Shown: piece by piece, positions 15,522 through 50,414 of the stretch
Layout of the letters: each line of letters opens with the position of its first letter
Numbering within the stretch: the first letter of the stretch is position 1
Source: Thermoleophilia bacterium
GTDB lineage: Bacteria > Actinomycetota > Thermoleophilia > Miltoncostaeales > Miltoncostaeaceae
NCBI GenBank assembly: GCA_009694365.1
Contig: SHVE01000008.1
Span: 1-64,000 of the forward strand
Reading direction: 5' to 3'
Length of the DNA: 64,000 bases
Position numbers and translations under genes: made by a program
Notes under the pieces: generated by a model
What the model was told of the DNA's origin: nothing
Database searches by the model: none
Seen by the model: only the letters and a program-made list of their open reading frames with translations

Positions 15522-15600
15522 TGTGCCTCCATGCTCAGGATATGACGGTGAGTCTCACCACGGTGTCGGACGTCGTTGCTACGGTTCCCTCACCGATCGC

Positions 15601-15776
15601 CCGTCGTGGGAGAGCCCGGCTTCGAGTCGGCGCCGAAGGAGCAACCGCCCCGGAATCTCTCAGGCACCCGAACCGTGGTGGGCGCGGTAACGCTGGAGAG
15701 AGGGTGCTCGCCACCCCGCCGATGGGGAAAGCCCGCACTGCGGGTGCATCTCTCAGGCACACGGACAGCGGGGGCT
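15601..15776 (+). promoter_or_regulatory. Tandem glycine riboswitch
   Basis: Two aptamers lie upstream of gcvP. Aptamer 1 runs from about 15605 (GGGAGAGCC) through GCGCCGAAGGAGCAA to ATCTCTCAGGCA near 15667. Aptamer 2 runs from about 15692 (TGGAGAGAGG) through CCGATGGGGAAAGC to ATCTCTCAGGCA near 15761. These are the conserved cores of the gcvT-type glycine riboswitch, usually an activating switch that turns on glycine cleavage when glycine is plentiful. About 30 bases separate it from the gcvP ATG. Confidence 0.93.
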
Positions 15777-15808: not shown

Positions 15809-18676
15809 ATGTCCAACCACACCAGTCTCACCGATCTCGAGGGGAACGACGAGTTCCTCGCACGACACATCGGGCCGTCCGATGCGGAGGTGGCCGCCAT
15901 GCTCCGTGTGGTGGGCGCTGACTCTTTGGATGACCTCATCCGCCAGACCGTCCCCGGGTCCATCCTGCTCGACGCGCCACTCGACCTCCCCGCCCCGGTT
16001 ACCGAGCGGAACGCGATCGCGCGCCTGCGGGGAATCGCCGCCGACAACACGGTGATGACCTCGCTGATCGGGATGGGCTACAGCGACACGATCACCCCAG
16101 CGGTCATCCAGCGCAACATTCTCGAGAACCCCGCGTGGTACACGTCGTACACGCCGTACCAGCCCGAGATCTCACAGGGGCGCCTCGAGGCGTTGCTCAC
16201 CTTCCAAACCGTGGTGGCTGACCTCACCGGGCTGCCCCTCGCGAATGCCTCCCTGCTCGACGAGGGAACGGCGGCCGCCGAGGCCATGACCATGGCGCGG
16301 CGGGCGAGCCGGGCCGACTCGCCCGTGTTCTTCGTAGATCACGACTGCCACCCCCAGACCATCGCGGTCGTGGCCACCCGCGCCGAGCCCATCGGTATCG
16401 AGGTAGTGGTGGGTGACCCCGAGGTCGATCTGCCGGACGCGCTCTTCGGCGCCCTGCTCGCCGTACCCGGATCGAGTGGGGCGGTACGCGACGTCTCCCC
16501 CGTCATCGCCCGCGTGCACGCACTGGGTGGACTCGCGGCGGTGGTGGCCGACCCCCTCGCAATGGTGCTGGTGACGCCTCCGGGTGACATGGGTGCCGAC
16601 ATCGCCGTGGGATCGATGCAGCGCTACGGCGTGCCGATGGGCTTCGGCGGCCCGCACGCCGGGTTCATTGCCACGCGTGAGGAGTTCGCGCGCTCGCTCC
16701 CCGGTCGCCTGGTCGGGGTGTCCCTCGACGCCGCCGGACGCCCGGCGCTGCGCCTTGCTCTACAGACCCGTGAGCAACACATCCGCCGCGAGAAGGCCAC
16801 CAGCAACGTCTGCACTGCGCAGGCCCTCCTCGCCATCATCGCGGCCATGTACGCCTCGTGGCACGGGGCCGAGGGGCTGCGCCGCATCGCCGAGCGCACT
16901 CTGCGCCTCACCTCCATCGTGGCCCGGGGACTCCGTGATTCCGGTATCGAGGTGGTGGGTGACACGTGGTTCGACACGCTCACGGTGCGCGTGCCCGGAC
17001 GTTCCCCCCAGGTCCTTGCTGCCGCCCGTGCGGAGGGCATCAATCTGCGCGAGGTGGATAACGACACCGTAGGACTGTCTTTCGACGAAACCTCCACCCC
17101 TGGCGTCGTGGTGAGCGTGTGGCGGGCCTTCGGGATAACGGCATCGGTGGATGCGCTCGACCCGGTGGTGGCCGAGGGAATCCCCGTCGGACTCCGCCGC
17201 ACGCGCGCCATGCTCCAACACCCGGTGTTCACCCGCTACCGCACCGAGCACGAGATGCTGCGGTACCTGCGTCGCCTCGAGGACCGTGACCTCGCCCTCG
17301 ACCGCACGATGATCCCTCTGGGCTCGTGCACGATGAAGCTCAACGCTGCCAGCGAGATGATGCCCATCACGTGGCCGGAGTTCGCAGGTATCCATCCGTT
17401 CGCCCCCATCGATCAGACCACCGGATACCGCCGGATGTTCGACGACTTAGAACGTGCGCTCTGCGAGGTGACCGGCTACGACGCCGTGTCGCTCCAACCC
17501 AACGCCGGGTCGCAGGGCGAACTCGCGGGGCTGCTCGCCATCCGCGGGTACCACCGTGAGCGCGGCGACGCGCGACGCACCATCTGTCTCATCCCGTCGT
17601 CCGCCCACGGAACCAACGCTGCATCCGCCGTGATGGCCGGGATGAGCGTGGTGGTGGTGGCATGCACGCCCGACGGCGACGTGGACCTGGCCGATCTGCG
17701 TGTCAAGGCCGATGAGGCCAGTGACCGCCTTGCGGCGGTGATGATCACCTACCCCTCCACGCACGGCGTGTTCGAGACCGACGTGGAGGAAATCTGCGAG
17801 GTCGTCCACGCCCGCGGGGGACAGGTGTATGTGGACGGCGCCAACCTGAACGCTCTGGTGGGGCTGGCCAAGCCGGGCCACTTCGGGGCCGACGTGTCAC
17901 ATCTCAACCTGCACAAGACGTTCTGCATCCCCCATGGCGGTGGCGGACCGGGTGTCGGTCCGGTGGCCGTGCGTGCCCATCTGGCGCCGTACCTGCCCAA
18001 CCACCCACTGCGCGCCGATGCCGGTCCCGCCTCGGGCGTGGGTCCTGTGTCGGCCGCACCCTTCGGATCCGCCGGGATCCTGCCGATCCCGTGGATGTAC
18101 ATCACCCTGATGGGGGCCGAAGGGCTGAGACAGGCGTCCGCGGTGGCGATCCTCAGCGCCAACTACGTCGCCGCGCGCCTCTCCCCCCACTTTCCTGTAC
18201 TGCACACGGGTGCGGGTGGCCGGGTGGCGCACGAGTGCATCCTCGACCTACGCCCCATCAAAGATTCGTGCGGGGTGACCGTGGACGACGTGGCCAAGCG
18301 GCTCATGGATCACGGGTTCCACGCCCCCACCATGTCGTTCCCGGTCGCCGGAACCCTCATGGTGGAGCCCACCGAGAGCGAGGCGCAGAGAGAGCTCGAC
18401 CGGTTCTGCGACGCCATGATCAGCATCCGCGAGGAGATCGCACGCGTGGAGAGCGGCGAGTGGGACGTGGACGACAATCCGCTGCGCCACGCACCCCATA
18501 CGGCGGAGGATGTCGCCACCGACACCTGGGGTCGCCCCTACGGACGCATCGTGGCCGCGTACCCCCTCCCCGGTACCAAGGTGTCGAAGTACTGGCCCCC
18601 CGTTGGCCGGATCGACTCGGTACACGGCGATCGGAATCTGGTCTGCTCGTGCCCGCCGGTGGAGGACTACGCCTAG
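15809..18676 (+). CDS. gcvP: Glycine dehydrogenase (P protein of glycine cleavage)
   Basis: A 955-residue single-chain P protein decarboxylates glycine with PLP and passes the aminomethyl group to lipoyl-GcvH. The N-terminal half starts [17 protein letters not shown] and contains [16 protein letters not shown]. The C-terminal half holds the PLP lysine in [16 protein letters not shown] (about residue 702). The length is normal for the fused form. It is preceded by a tandem glycine riboswitch. gcvT, gcvH and lpd are not in the window, so the gene is apart from its partners. Its TAG shares bases with the stop of the convergent VWA gene (CTAG). Confidence 0.96.
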
Positions 18677-22440: not shown

Positions 22441-22527
22441 GTGCCGTGCTCCTTAGATTCGAGAGGATCGTTCAGAAGTGGTTGAGAATCCTACCAGCGA
22501 GATGGCACCCCGCCCGGAACCCGTTCC

Positions 22528-22577
22528 CTCGGGTCAGGACCTCGGGTCAGGACCTCGGGTCAGGACCTCGGGTCAGG
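22528..22577. repeat. 13-bp tandem repeat, nearly four copies
   Basis: The unit CTCGGGTCAGGAC repeats three times plus a partial fourth copy. The last copy contains the stop codon of the small protein gene that ends at 22573, so the array extends its 3' untranslated region. Copy number may vary between strains. Confidence 0.85.
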
Positions 22578-40376: not shown

Positions 40377-40423
40377 GCACTTATCAAACCCGGGCCGACA
40401 CCCCGGGAGGAGGCTAGGGTGGG

Positions 40424-40605
40424 GTCGCTTTCGGTTGGTGGTCACCCTCCGGGGTGCGTGAGAGGGAAGCCGGTGTGACTCCGGCGCGGTCCCGCCACTG
40501 TGACCCGCGAGCGTCACCACTAGGCGAGAAGCCGGCCACTGGTCCGCACGGACCGGGAAGGTGTGGATGACGTGATGACCGGGGAGTCAGGAGACCTGCC
40601 GCTGA
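40424..40605 (+). promoter_or_regulatory. Adenosylcobalamin (B12) riboswitch
   Basis: The leader carries GGTTGGTGGTCACCC, then GAGAGGGAAGCCGGTG, GACTCCGGCGCGGTCC and CGCCACTGTGACCC, and ends with the B12 box GAGTCAGGAGACCTGCC near 40584-40600. These are conserved blocks of the cobalamin riboswitch in the usual order and spacing. It normally lowers expression when adenosylcobalamin is abundant. The ATG of the secreted DUF4430 protein is about 40 bases downstream, with GAAGGAG just before it. Confidence 0.95.
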
Positions 40606-40645
40606 CCGTGAGACACACATCCTTTCGTGGATCGAAGGAGTCCGA

Positions 40646-41398
40646 ATGACCAAGTACCTCGGCCGCATCGCGGCCGTCACCGTCGTGGGTGCGCTCGCGC
40701 TCGCCCCGATCGCATTTAGCGCGGTATCCCCTGGCCCCACCGACATCTCCACCGTCATCTCGGTGGAGGGTCCCACCCGAAACATGGTCATGCCCATGGC
40801 GGCCACCGTGCCCACGGCGGCCGGCATCGCCACCGTCACCGATTCGACGGGCCAGCGGGTCCGTATGAGCCGGAGGAGCGTGGGCGTGCTGAGCCTCAGC
40901 ACACTCAAAACGGCCGGCGTCAAAGTGAAGTGGGTGTACTACCCCGCCTTCCAGGCCCCCTACATCGAAACGATCGGCGGCGTCGCGCCCAAGGGCCTCA
41001 AGGGCTGGTCGTTCCGGGTCAACGGTATCGCGTTCAACCGGTCCTCCAATATGGTGAACTTGGGTCGGGGCGACCGCGTGGTGTGGGCGTGGGGTACCGG
41101 GAAGGAGCCGGCCCTCACCATCACCCAGCCGGCCACGGGCTCCGCACCGGGCGCAACGGTGAGCGGCGTCAGCGTCACGGCCGTCATCACGCAGGTGACG
41201 ACCACGGGCGTCCGTAGCCCGGCATCCGGTGCCACGGTCACCTACGGAGGCGCAACGGTGACCACCGGCGCCGACGGAACTGCCACGTTCACGACGGTTT
41301 CCGGCGTCAACGTCCTCCGCGCGATCAAGGCCGGACGTGTGCCGTCCATTATGTCCATCTGCACAATCGGCACCTCGCCGGAGTGTCTGGCGGCGTAG
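40646..41398 (+). CDS. Secreted DUF4430 protein, transcobalamin-like
   Basis: A 250-residue exported protein with a signal peptide (MTKYLGRIAAVTVVGALALA, cleavage near AFSA). Residues about 75-150 fit a DUF4430 domain: VGVLSLSTLKTAGVKVKWVY, GLKGWSFRVNGIAFN and RGDRVVWAWGTG. DUF4430 is the domain also found at the C-terminus of intrinsic factor and transcobalamin, and such proteins may bind cobalamin outside the cell. The last 100 residues are a Thr-rich Ig-like repeat. Control by an adenosylcobalamin riboswitch supports a B12 role. No LPxTG or lipobox is seen. No BtuCDF-type genes lie in the window. Binding is inferred, not proven. Confidence 0.85.
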   Translation: MTKYLGRIAAVTVVGALALAPIAFSAVSPGPTDISTVISVEGPTRNMVMPMAATVPTAAGIATVTDSTGQRVRMSRRSVGVLSLSTLKTAGVKVKWVYYPAFQAPYIETIGGVAPKGLKGWSFRVNGIAFNRSSNMVNLGRGDRVVWAWGTGKEPALTITQPATGSAPGATVSGVSVTAVITQVTTTGVRSPASGATVTYGGATVTTGADGTATFTTVSGVNVLRAIKAGRVPSIMSICTIGTSPECLAA

Positions 41399-41405
41399 GC
41401 AACCG

Positions 41406-42374
41406 ATGGACGGACACGCCCACGATCTCGTTGCCGCAGGGGCTCGGGCCCTTGCGAACGGCGAGCTCGTGGCGTTTCCCACCGAGACCGTCTACGGCCT
41501 GGGGGCCGACGCACTCAACCCCCAGGCCGTAGACCGTGTCTTCACCGCGAAGGGCCGGCCGCGGGATCACCCGCTCATCTGCCACGTGGGATCCATTGAC
41601 GACATGACCCCGCTGGTTGCGGAGGTCACGCCCGACGCCCGCGTCCTGGCCGAGGCCTTCTGGCCGGGGCCCCTCACCCTTATCCTCAGGCGCTCCCACC
41701 GCGTGCCGGATGCCGTCACCGGCGGCCTTGACACCCTCGCCGTGCGCGTGCCCGCGCATCCCCTCGCACTCGCTCTGCTCACCGCGTTCGGAGGGCCCGT
41801 GGCCGCGCCATCGGCAAACCGGTTCGGGCGCCCGAGCCCCACGCGCGCGGAAGATGTGGCGTTCGAACTCGGCGACGCCGTGAGTGTCATCCTCGACGGA
41901 GGTCCCTGCGAGATCGGCATCGAGTCCACCGTTCTGGACCTCACCACCGACCCCCCCCAGATCCTCCGGCCCGGGAGCATCGGCGCCGACGCGATCGCCA
42001 CCATCATCGGACGACCGGTGAGTGCCACCCCCACCGGGCCCTCCCGCGCACCCGGCATGCGGGAGCAGCACTACGCCCCGGGGGCGCGGGTGGAGATTCT
42101 CGCCGCACGTGCCGTGCCCCGTCGCGCGAGGGTCCTCCACGCCAACGGAGTCGCCGTGGCCGTGCTCGCGCCGGATGAGATCCCCGCTCTCCCACCGTCG
42201 GCGTTGCTGCTCGGTCCGGCCCGAACCCCGGCCGCGTACGCCGCCATTCTCTATGCCGCCTTCCGTCGCGCGGACGCAGCGGGCGTCACCGTCATCCTTG
42301 CCGTGCCACCGCCGGATGAGGGAATCGGCACCGCAATCCGCGACCGCCTCGCGAGGGCCGCCGCAGGCCGCTGA
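41406..42374 (+). CDS. Threonylcarbamoyl-AMP synthase, Sua5 type
   Basis: The ATG at 41406 gives 322 residues. The YrdC domain has AFPTETVYGLGADALN, the nucleotide pocket AKGRPRDHPLICHVG, RVPAHPLALALL and APSANRFGRPSPT. A C-terminal Sua5-specific extension follows (APGMREQHYAPGA linker, then about 90 residues). The enzyme makes threonylcarbamoyl-AMP for the universal t6A modification at tRNA position 37. It starts eight bases after the stop of the riboswitch-controlled gene, so read-through from that promoter is possible. Confidence 0.93.
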   Translation: MDGHAHDLVAAGARALANGELVAFPTETVYGLGADALNPQAVDRVFTAKGRPRDHPLICHVGSIDDMTPLVAEVTPDARVLAEAFWPGPLTLILRRSHRVPDAVTGGLDTLAVRVPAHPLALALLTAFGGPVAAPSANRFGRPSPTRAEDVAFELGDAVSVILDGGPCEIGIESTVLDLTTDPPQILRPGSIGADAIATIIGRPVSATPTGPSRAPGMREQHYAPGARVEILAARAVPRRARVLHANGVAVAVLAPDEIPALPPSALLLGPARTPAAYAAILYAAFRRADAAGVTVILAVPPPDEGIGTAIRDRLARAAAGR

Positions 42375-42417: not shown

Positions 42418-43020
42418 ATGGTGCGCACCGCAGTCATCGCACTTATCCTGGCGGGCGGGGTACCGCTCGCCGTGGCGACACCGGCCGCCACCACCGGGCC
42501 GGTGGCCCCGGCGGCCCGGAGCGGGGGCTCGGTGCTCACTGGCACCTACGACCGACTGGTGGGTGGGCGTATCGATCTGGCCGCCCTTCGCGGGCGCGTC
42601 GTGCTGGTGGTCAACACCGCGAGCCGCTGCGGCTTCACCCGCCAGTACGCATCGCTCGAGACCCTTTGGAGGACCCGACGCGCCGAGGGCGTCACCGTCG
42701 TCGGCGTACCGTCACACGACTTCAAGCAAGAGCTGCCGAGCAATGGCGAGGTGGTGCGGTTCTGCACACGCAACTTCGGTGTGTCGTTCCCCATGCTCCG
42801 GATATCCACGGTGACCGGCCCGCGTGCCATCCGGCTGTTCACGGGACTCGCCGCCCCGTCGTGGAGTGGCGCGCCCACGTGGAACTTCACCAAGTACCTC
42901 ATCGACCGACAGGGGCGACCGGCGATGCGCCTCGCCCCATCCATCACCCCGGACTCCCCCACCATGACGGCCGCGATCAACGCGCTGCTGGCCGAACGCG
43001 GCATACGGAGGGGAACCTAG
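42418..43020 (+). CDS. Secreted glutathione peroxidase family protein
   Basis: The ATG at 42418 gives 200 residues with a signal peptide (ALILAGGVPLAVATPA). The peroxidatic Cys lies in LVVNTASRCGFTRQYASLE. The usual PCNQFG motif is GVPSHDFKQELPSN, so the catalytic Gln/Asn positions are changed, while WNFTKYLIDRQG is conserved. The protein would act on peroxides outside the cytoplasmic membrane, likely with a thioredoxin-like reductant rather than glutathione. Its stop overlaps the convergent GMC oxidoreductase stop as CTAG. Confidence 0.85.
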   Translation: MVRTAVIALILAGGVPLAVATPAATTGPVAPAARSGGSVLTGTYDRLVGGRIDLAALRGRVVLVVNTASRCGFTRQYASLETLWRTRRAEGVTVVGVPSHDFKQELPSNGEVVRFCTRNFGVSFPMLRISTVTGPRAIRLFTGLAAPSWSGAPTWNFTKYLIDRQGRPAMRLAPSITPDSPTMTAAINALLAERGIRRGT

Positions 43021-49406: not shown

Positions 49407-50414
49407 GTGGCCTACGAGGACATCATCTACGAGACCCGCGATGGTCGAGCAACGATCACCATCAACCGCCCGGAACGCCTCAATGCATTCCGCCTAAAGA
49501 CCGTTGTCGAGATGGGCGAGGCCCTCGAGGCCGCCGCCGACGACGAGTCCATCGGAGTCGTGGTGCTCACCGGCGCCGGTGAACGCGCCTTTTGCGTGGG
49601 CGGCGACGTGGCCGACCCCACGCGTACCGCCGCCGAGAAGCGCCACCTGCACACCGTGTCGTACCGTGTGGCCAACGCCATCCGCAACAACGGGAAGCCG
49701 GTCATCGCCAAGGTGCGTGGCTACTGCATCGGTGGCGGGAACGAACTCAACGTCCTCTGCGACCTCACGCTGTCGGGTGAGTCCGGTCGCTTCGGCCAGG
49801 CGGGGCCCAAGATTGGGTCGGCCCCCCTGTGGTGGGGCTGCCAACTGATGCCGTCCGTGGTCGGAGCGAAGAAGGCCCGCGAAATCCTCTTCCTCGCCCG
49901 CCAGTACGACGCGTATCAGGCGATGGAGATGGGCCTCGTCAACCAAGTGGTTCCGGACGCCGATCTCGACGCCCTCGTGGACGAGTGGTGCGACGAGATT
50001 CTGCGGAAGTCACCGCAGGGCCTCCGCCTCGCCAAGATCTCGATGAACTCGGCGAGCGACGCGCTCTACTCCTCCGTGCAGCACGGCCTCGAGCTCGTCG
50101 CCTTGAACCACGTGTACGGCCCGGAGCCCAAGGAGGGCATCGCGTCGTTCCAGGAGAAGCGACCCGCCGACTGGCGCCGATTCCGCGATGGACAGGGACC
50201 CGACCCGGCAACCCCGCCGCTCTCGTCCACGGCCCCGAAGGCAGTGGCGAAGGCCGCTCCGAAGGCGGCGACGAAGGCCGCTCCGAAGGCGGCGACGAAG
50301 GCCGCTCCGAAGGCGGCGACGAAGGCCGCTCCGAAGGCGGCGGCGAAGGCCGCTCCGAAGGCAGTGGCGAAGGCCGCTCCGAAGGCAGTGGCGACCCGGG
50401 CGGCCCGCCGGTGA
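49407..50414 (+). CDS. MenB/BadI-like crotonase with Lys/Ala/Pro tail
   Basis: A 335-residue crotonase-fold protein. TINRPERLNAFRLKTVVEM, FCVGGDVADP, YCIGGGNELNVLCDLTLSGE (oxyanion region), FGQAGPKIGSAPLWWG and ARQYDAYQAMEMGLVNQVVP resemble 1,4-dihydroxy-2-naphthoyl-CoA synthase and ring-cleaving hydrolases such as BadI. The end (FQEKRPADWRRF) is typical. Beyond residue 275 comes a low-complexity tail of seven 8-residue units such as PKAATKAA, like histone H1 tails. Its TGA overlaps the cofG start as GTGA, so it is in the F420 operon. A role in F420 is not obvious. Confidence 0.85.
   Translation: MAYEDIIYETRDGRATITINRPERLNAFRLKTVVEMGEALEAAADDESIGVVVLTGAGERAFCVGGDVADPTRTAAEKRHLHTVSYRVANAIRNNGKPVIAKVRGYCIGGGNELNVLCDLTLSGESGRFGQAGPKIGSAPLWWGCQLMPSVVGAKKAREILFLARQYDAYQAMEMGLVNQVVPDADLDALVDEWCDEILRKSPQGLRLAKISMNSASDALYSSVQHGLELVALNHVYGPEPKEGIASFQEKRPADWRRFRDGQGPDPATPPLSSTAPKAVAKAAPKAATKAAPKAATKAAPKAATKAAPKAAAKAAPKAVAKAAPKAVATRAARR
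50235..50402 (+). repeat. Seven 24-bp in-frame tandem repeats
   Basis: The unit is about GAAGGCCGCTCCGAAGGCGG and encodes PKA(A/V)(T/A)KAA. Three central copies are nearly identical, suggesting recent expansion or homogenisation. The tail would be strongly basic and flexible. It lies at the end of the crotonase gene. Confidence 0.85.

Follow-up and report, generated by a model that had tools for sequence, protein, structure and literature searches.

The window, by which we mean the whole stretch of 64,000 nucleotides that was analyzed, comes from a genome of 1.5 Mb that is 98% complete; statements about that genome rest on family and profile searches. Within the window, a cobalamin riboswitch stands ahead of a gene for a secreted DUF4430 protein, here called P0001, and two further genes follow on the same strand. 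In window coordinates, the features of the locus are as follows:

40422..40617, + strand, cobalamin riboswitch aptamer (RF00174), by cmscan and repeated in the whole-genome search
40620..40640, + strand, expression-platform hairpin TCCTT(T)CG-TGGAT-CGAAGGA, from the minimum-energy fold of a 39-nt segment
40635-40640, + strand, Shine-Dalgarno sequence AAGGAG, buried in the platform hairpin
40646..41398, + strand, secreted DUF4430 protein P0001, 250 aa (PF14478; AlphaFold2)
40646..40723, + strand, Sec signal peptide, residues 1-26 (MTKYLGRIAAVTVVGALALAPIAFSA), by eye from the sequence
40745..41098, + strand, beta-grasp domain, residues 34-151, with the beta-domain fold of haptocorrin, intrinsic factor and transcobalamin (VIA-align)
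41102..41374, + strand, C-terminal Ig-like domain, residues about 153-243, from structure matches
41406..42374, + strand, Sua5/YrdC threonylcarbamoyl-AMP synthase (PF01300, 213.7 bits)
42418-43020, + strand, glutathione-peroxidase (GPx) gene, after Sua5/YrdC

An earlier note on this DNA had recognized the leader as a cobalamin riboswitch by its pattern, and the search with RF00174 bears this out: cmscan aligns the full model (1-189) with 108.1 bits and E 4e-26, far above the gathering score of 31.5 bits. The genome holds one other copy, at C1:24918. Its naming in the earlier note as an adenosylcobalamin riboswitch is not established: the model cannot discriminate among corrinoids, and the cobalamin riboswitches that have been tested range from promiscuous to semiselective, with many corrinoids triggering the response (PMC9600662). 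Between the aptamer and the start codon, the 39-nt segment folds into TCCTTTCG-TGGAT-CGAAGGAG, where the upstream pyrimidine run pairs with the Shine-Dalgarno sequence. Most of 17 relatives, when folded, show an equivalent pyrimidine/purine hairpin ahead of the start codon, made of other letters (e.g., CCTC/GAGG and ACCCT/AGGGT) and with a loop core CGnGGA. A longer, 61-nt fold around the start codon does not favor the hairpin (z +1.46), and the platform therefore rests on the shorter segments and on conservation across relatives. Judged from the sequence, the hairpin probably blocks translation in the ligand-bound state; that it hides the Shine-Dalgarno sequence points to control at the level of translation, under which the Sua5 gene downstream would be left unaffected. 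Elsewhere in the window, a glycine riboswitch aptamer (RF00504, 60 bits; 15597-15685) lies upstream of a full-length gcvP glycine dehydrogenase gene (15809-18676), an ordinary arrangement.

The DUF4430 gene had been described as the only one under the riboswitch, and this holds in part: it is directly under it, but the start codon of Sua5/YrdC comes just 7 nt past its stop (41398-41406), followed by GPx, all on the same strand, and the riboswitch transcript may thus be common to them. We regard Sua5/YrdC as a neighbor and do not think it part of the B12 function. As claimed before, the annotated part of the window shows no gene for B12 transport. Two observations from other parts of the window concern repeats: in an enoyl-CoA hydratase gene (PF00378; 49407-50414), a 24-bp tandem repeat (50235-50394) gives rise to an Ala/Pro/Lys-rich C-terminal tail, similar to those of histone-H1 type and unusual on such an enzyme, and a perfect 13-bp tandem repeat is present in 3.9 copies (CCTCGGGTCAGGA) at 22527-22577.

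The description of P0001 as a signal-peptide protein with a DUF4430 domain stands, the Sec-type peptide being apparent by eye and PF14478 matching with 28.9 bits against a cutoff of 23.8 (profile positions 24-71 of 72). NCBIfam has no model for the protein, and a by-eye reading of its sequence revealed no lipobox, LPXTG sortase motif or C-terminal membrane helix. The AlphaFold2 model, built from 29 sequences, has a mean pLDDT of 86, with low values at residues 7-32; a model built from 6 sequences (pLDDT 50) was discarded. In comparisons with VIA-align, the beta-grasp domain matches haptocorrin (4kki) with Z 13.1 and an rmsd of 1.7 over 95 residues, intrinsic factor with Z 12.2-12.5 (2pmv, 12.2) and transcobalamin with Z 11.6-12.3 (2bb5, 11.9; isolated human TC-beta 5no0, 12.0), and the best 15 structural matches are cobalamin carriers, plus 3u7z from Ruminococcus gnavus, which has the same fold. 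Identity to the human carriers in the structural alignment is 8-17%, and structure comparison alone found the relationship, as neither single-sequence nor profile searches of the PDB sequences retrieved transcobalamin. In this model-based comparison, the common fold does not prove a common ligand. The matches of the Ig-like domain reach Z 8-9, a level where the tool warns of a merely common fold; at the end of the protein, C239 and C247 are invariant in the short clade. The likeness to intrinsic factor and transcobalamin proposed in the earlier note is therefore that of one half, since the beta-domain fold is present (Z 11.6-13.1) and the alpha/alpha toroid is absent from the 250-aa polypeptide, which consists of the beta and Ig-like domains only, the toroid half being encoded separately. 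The genome has one further DUF4430 protein, lipoprotein-like, at C2:29078.

A search for homologues of P0001 in 61 Thermoleophilia genomes gave 35 stretches in 30 genomes, and the proposed pairing of riboswitch and DUF4430 gene recurs in these relatives: RF00174 is directly upstream in 28 of the 35, lacking in four, while two are cut by contig ends and one fell outside the check. With about two cobalamin riboswitches per 1.5-Mb genome, 28 linked loci cannot be due to chance. For comparison, 29 DUF4430 loci with high scores were taken from other classes of the phylum, and no cobalamin riboswitch lies within about 1.5 kb of any of them; one further locus of that set, from Thermoleophilia, does carry one. 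The linkage is thus special to the class or a subgroup of it, and DUF4430 is by itself no sign of B12: the riboswitch marks a class-specific set, and a scavenging role would not be common to all DUF4430 proteins. Near one of the outside-class loci there is an FMN riboswitch (L099:1160-1353); for some DUF4430 proteins, the vitamin served may be a different one. Among the closest relatives with a name, which are MAGs, are a lake isolate and a Miltoncostaeales bacterium (class Thermoleophilia).

The missing half and the parts of a transporter were located on other contigs of the window's genome:

C7:1761-2612, alpha/alpha toroid protein, E 2.5e-104 to the toroid profile
C1:25009-26547, fused EcfAA', directly behind the genome's second B12 riboswitch
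C1:26544-27161, S component, directly behind EcfAA', E 6e-97 to the class profile
C1:115544, EcfT, T component PF02361, 56 bits

A toroid protein, in most cases secreted and 280-300 aa long, is encoded downstream at 25 of the 28 loci with a riboswitch, either adjacent or later in the same gene run; there is none at the loci of the window's genome, G009 and G014, the last being interrupted by a contig end between the two genes. The profile of these proteins matches the alpha/alpha toroid of squalene-hopene cyclases (E 2.6e-20), and the same fold forms the N-terminal half of transcobalamin (PMC1796856). The toroid gene on C7 lies close to a tRNA, as the riboswitch-DUF4430-toroid locus often does in relatives, and has neither a riboswitch nor a DUF4430 gene beside it; that the two halves are unlinked in this genome speaks against a split carrier. 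The protein also matches weakly the NCBIfam family NF053823 (SCO2321, a Streptomyces toroid-like membrane protein; 38.5 bits vs. a cutoff of 300), on the function of which we found no literature. As the two halves of human transcobalamin, TC-alpha and TC-beta, when produced apart, come together in vitro only with cobalamin (PMC5599065), a carrier of two proteins is plausible.

The transporter parts make up a complete ECF set, with ABC_tran twice, a T component and an S component. The earlier note had named BtuF and BtuB as partners to look for; a BtuF-type protein (PF01497) has no match in the genome at E 0.01, a search in which 13 of 14 control genomes do match, and the probable partner is instead the ECF transporter under the second B12 riboswitch. 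The S component scores 18.9 bits to ECF-ribofla_trS and 13 bits to ECF_trnsprt, both below the family cutoffs, and its substrate assignment consequently rests on the riboswitch and the context. That context is explicit outside the genus, where four genomes (G038, G048, G058 and G060) have, behind one riboswitch and in one run, DUF4430, a lipoprotein DUF4430, EcfT, EcfAA', the S component and the toroid, the last being fused to the S component in G060; in G024, the same gene set is split over two adjacent riboswitch units. Across the 61 genomes, a DUF4430 homologue and the S component occur together in 26, DUF4430 alone in four, the S component alone in 11 and neither in 20 (Fisher p 6e-5, a value inflated by the relatedness of the genomes). 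Among the four with a DUF4430 protein and no detectable S component is G011, which is 91% complete and has the riboswitch and the toroid.

The window's genome encodes MetH, a methylmalonyl-CoA mutase C-terminal B12 domain and a radical-SAM protein with a B12-binding domain; the searches found no CobS and no corrin-ring methyltransferases, the only TP methylases being a uroporphyrinogen methyltransferase (SUMT)/HemD fusion and RsmI. From this gene content, the organism is most likely a B12 auxotroph. The same inventory bears on an account in which P0001 does take part in corrinoid uptake but its ligand is a precursor or another corrinoid (cobinamide or a non-cobalamin cobamide), or in which it is only a scaffold or adaptor for the transporter and does not itself hold the ligand. 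The breadth of corrinoids that trigger cobalamin riboswitches (PMC9600662), the binding of cobinamide by TC-beta as well (PMC5599065), the low identity of 8-17% to the human carriers and the capture of substrate by ECF S components themselves (PMC5997447) all fit it. Nevertheless, no CobS was found that would complete cobinamide, and the structural resemblance singles out cobalamin carriers; we consider this account unlikely.

The history of the locus offers further grounds for weighing alternatives. A neighborhood of aldehyde dehydrogenase, a 135-aa ORF, a short DUF4430 gene, Sua5 and GPx is shared by the window and by G009, G013, G015, G007 and G018, except that GPx is not seen in G015, where the contig ends. 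Only the window's genome (G000) and G009 have a riboswitch at this Sua5 site; the intergenic region ahead of the short DUF4430 gene is 333 nt in the former and about 393 nt in the latter vs. 148-193 nt in the other four, too short for the 196-nt aptamer. In those four, another DUF4430 gene, longer and accompanied by a toroid, lies elsewhere, and the riboswitch is found at that site in G013, G007 and G018, while in G015 a contig end intervenes. In G018, the short copy at the Sua5 site (L043:7849-8600), with two in-frame stops and a frame change, is a pseudogene, and the genome keeps its riboswitch, long DUF4430 and toroid locus. With the riboswitch at the short copy here and at the long loci in relatives, it appears that in the window's lineage the place of the beta half under riboswitch control has passed to the short paralogue. 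In a riboswitch tree of modest support, the aptamers of the window and G009 fall together, apart from the long loci of the genus, and that of G011, located ahead of a short-type gene and a toroid, groups with the long loci; the order of events that we infer for the locus should be read accordingly.

Proximity might suggest a relic riboswitch, or one that mainly serves Sua5/GPx, the DUF4430 protein being incidental, for Sua5 begins 7 nt downstream on the same strand. Yet the Sua5 neighborhood does without a riboswitch in G013, G015, G007 and G018, riboswitches precede DUF4430 at many other loci, and the aptamer retains its full 108 bits; we give this idea next to no credence. B12 riboswitches are known to control alternative isozymes. 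By analogy, P0001 could be a surface protein that the riboswitch represses and whose role lies outside uptake; it might, for instance, act as an adhesin repressed by B12 or provide a substitute function that does not need B12. The Ig-like domain, the Sua5-site copy without riboswitch in four genomes and the lack of an anchor or transporter gene beside P0001 in the window agree with such a role, which is nonetheless rendered decidedly improbable by the cobalamin-carrier fold and by the toroid and ECF genes linked to the DUF4430 gene in several families of the class.

We consider it likely that P0001, under the control of its riboswitch, supplies the beta half of an extracellular B12 binder that resembles transcobalamin, is naturally split and serves an ECF importer. 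Against this count the four syntenic copies without a riboswitch, one of them a pseudogene, the sub-cutoff scores of the S component, the unlinked toroid gene with no riboswitch of its own, the four genomes with a DUF4430 protein and no detectable S component, and the DUF4430 loci outside the class that lack the riboswitch. When corrinoid is low, the Shine-Dalgarno sequence would be free and the protein made and exported, to be retained at the surface or released; when corrinoid is high, the downstream hairpin would hide the Shine-Dalgarno sequence and synthesis would stop. Outside the membrane, the beta-grasp domain would bind a face of the corrinoid, the beta protein and the C7 toroid would close around it as the transcobalamin halves do, and the loaded complex would hand B12 to the importer formed by EcfAA', the S component and EcfT from C1, possibly via the C2 DUF4430 lipoprotein. 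A B12-acquisition role for a riboswitch-controlled, secreted, transcobalamin-like protein in an actinobacterium, as the earlier note had suggested, is well supported by the fold, the conserved riboswitch linkage, B12 auxotrophy and the ECF association, binding itself being predicted. A broader account holds that Thermoleophilia have a naturally split transcobalamin, whose separately encoded, secreted halves enclose B12 extracellularly and pass it to an ECF transporter, all under cobalamin riboswitches, and that the window's lineage has dismantled this arrangement, with a beta-half paralogue at another site now under riboswitch control; it has, in our estimate, an even chance of being right.

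ECF transporters are usually described as operating without an extracellular binding protein. The system bears on whether such an importer can take its substrate from an extracellular capture protein, and it also has a bearing on the competition for B12 among small-genome lake bacteria unable to make it; its small proteins are on offer for testing how the halves of a B12 carrier assemble. Of the known importers, ECF-CbrT (PMC5997447) likewise has EcfA/A', EcfT and an S component, and such a transporter is apparently the B12 import route of this genome; here, however, EcfA is fused to EcfA', known S families show only a weak relationship to the S component, and the importer comes with extracellular DUF4430 and toroid proteins. 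In role, the predicted cell-exposed capture of B12 for a dedicated transporter resembles that by the surface-exposed B12-capture lipoproteins of gut Bacteroides (PMC6143338), but the organism is of another type and no outer-membrane route is seen here. Human transcobalamin, intrinsic factor and haptocorrin share the beta-domain fold (Z 11.6-13.1) and the existence of a toroid partner, whereas here beta and toroid are separate polypeptides, an Ig-like domain is added and identity is 8-17%.

The closest precedent is the transcobalamin-like SLBB clade, for which Burroughs et al. (2007) predicted that bacterial proteins, some with toroid fusions, scavenge B12 with CbiO/CbiQ partners (PMC1796856). 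Both systems have a secreted bacterial beta-grasp domain homologous to the C-terminal domain of transcobalamin, an associated alpha/alpha toroid, ECF genes of CbiO/CbiQ type and no B12 synthesis. They differ in that the beta half and the toroid are separate genes here and that, with the parts spread over the window's genome, the beta half stands alone there under its own riboswitch. That paper mentions riboswitches nowhere (0 occurrences), and our literature search, which covered few of the subscription journals, found no paper joining DUF4430 with the cobalamin riboswitch. While the prediction of B12 scavenging has been known since 2007, the riboswitch link, the split halves and the relocation and dispersal of the parts appear to be new, and with them the earlier prediction for bacterial transcobalamin-like proteins gains an independent, regulatory argument.
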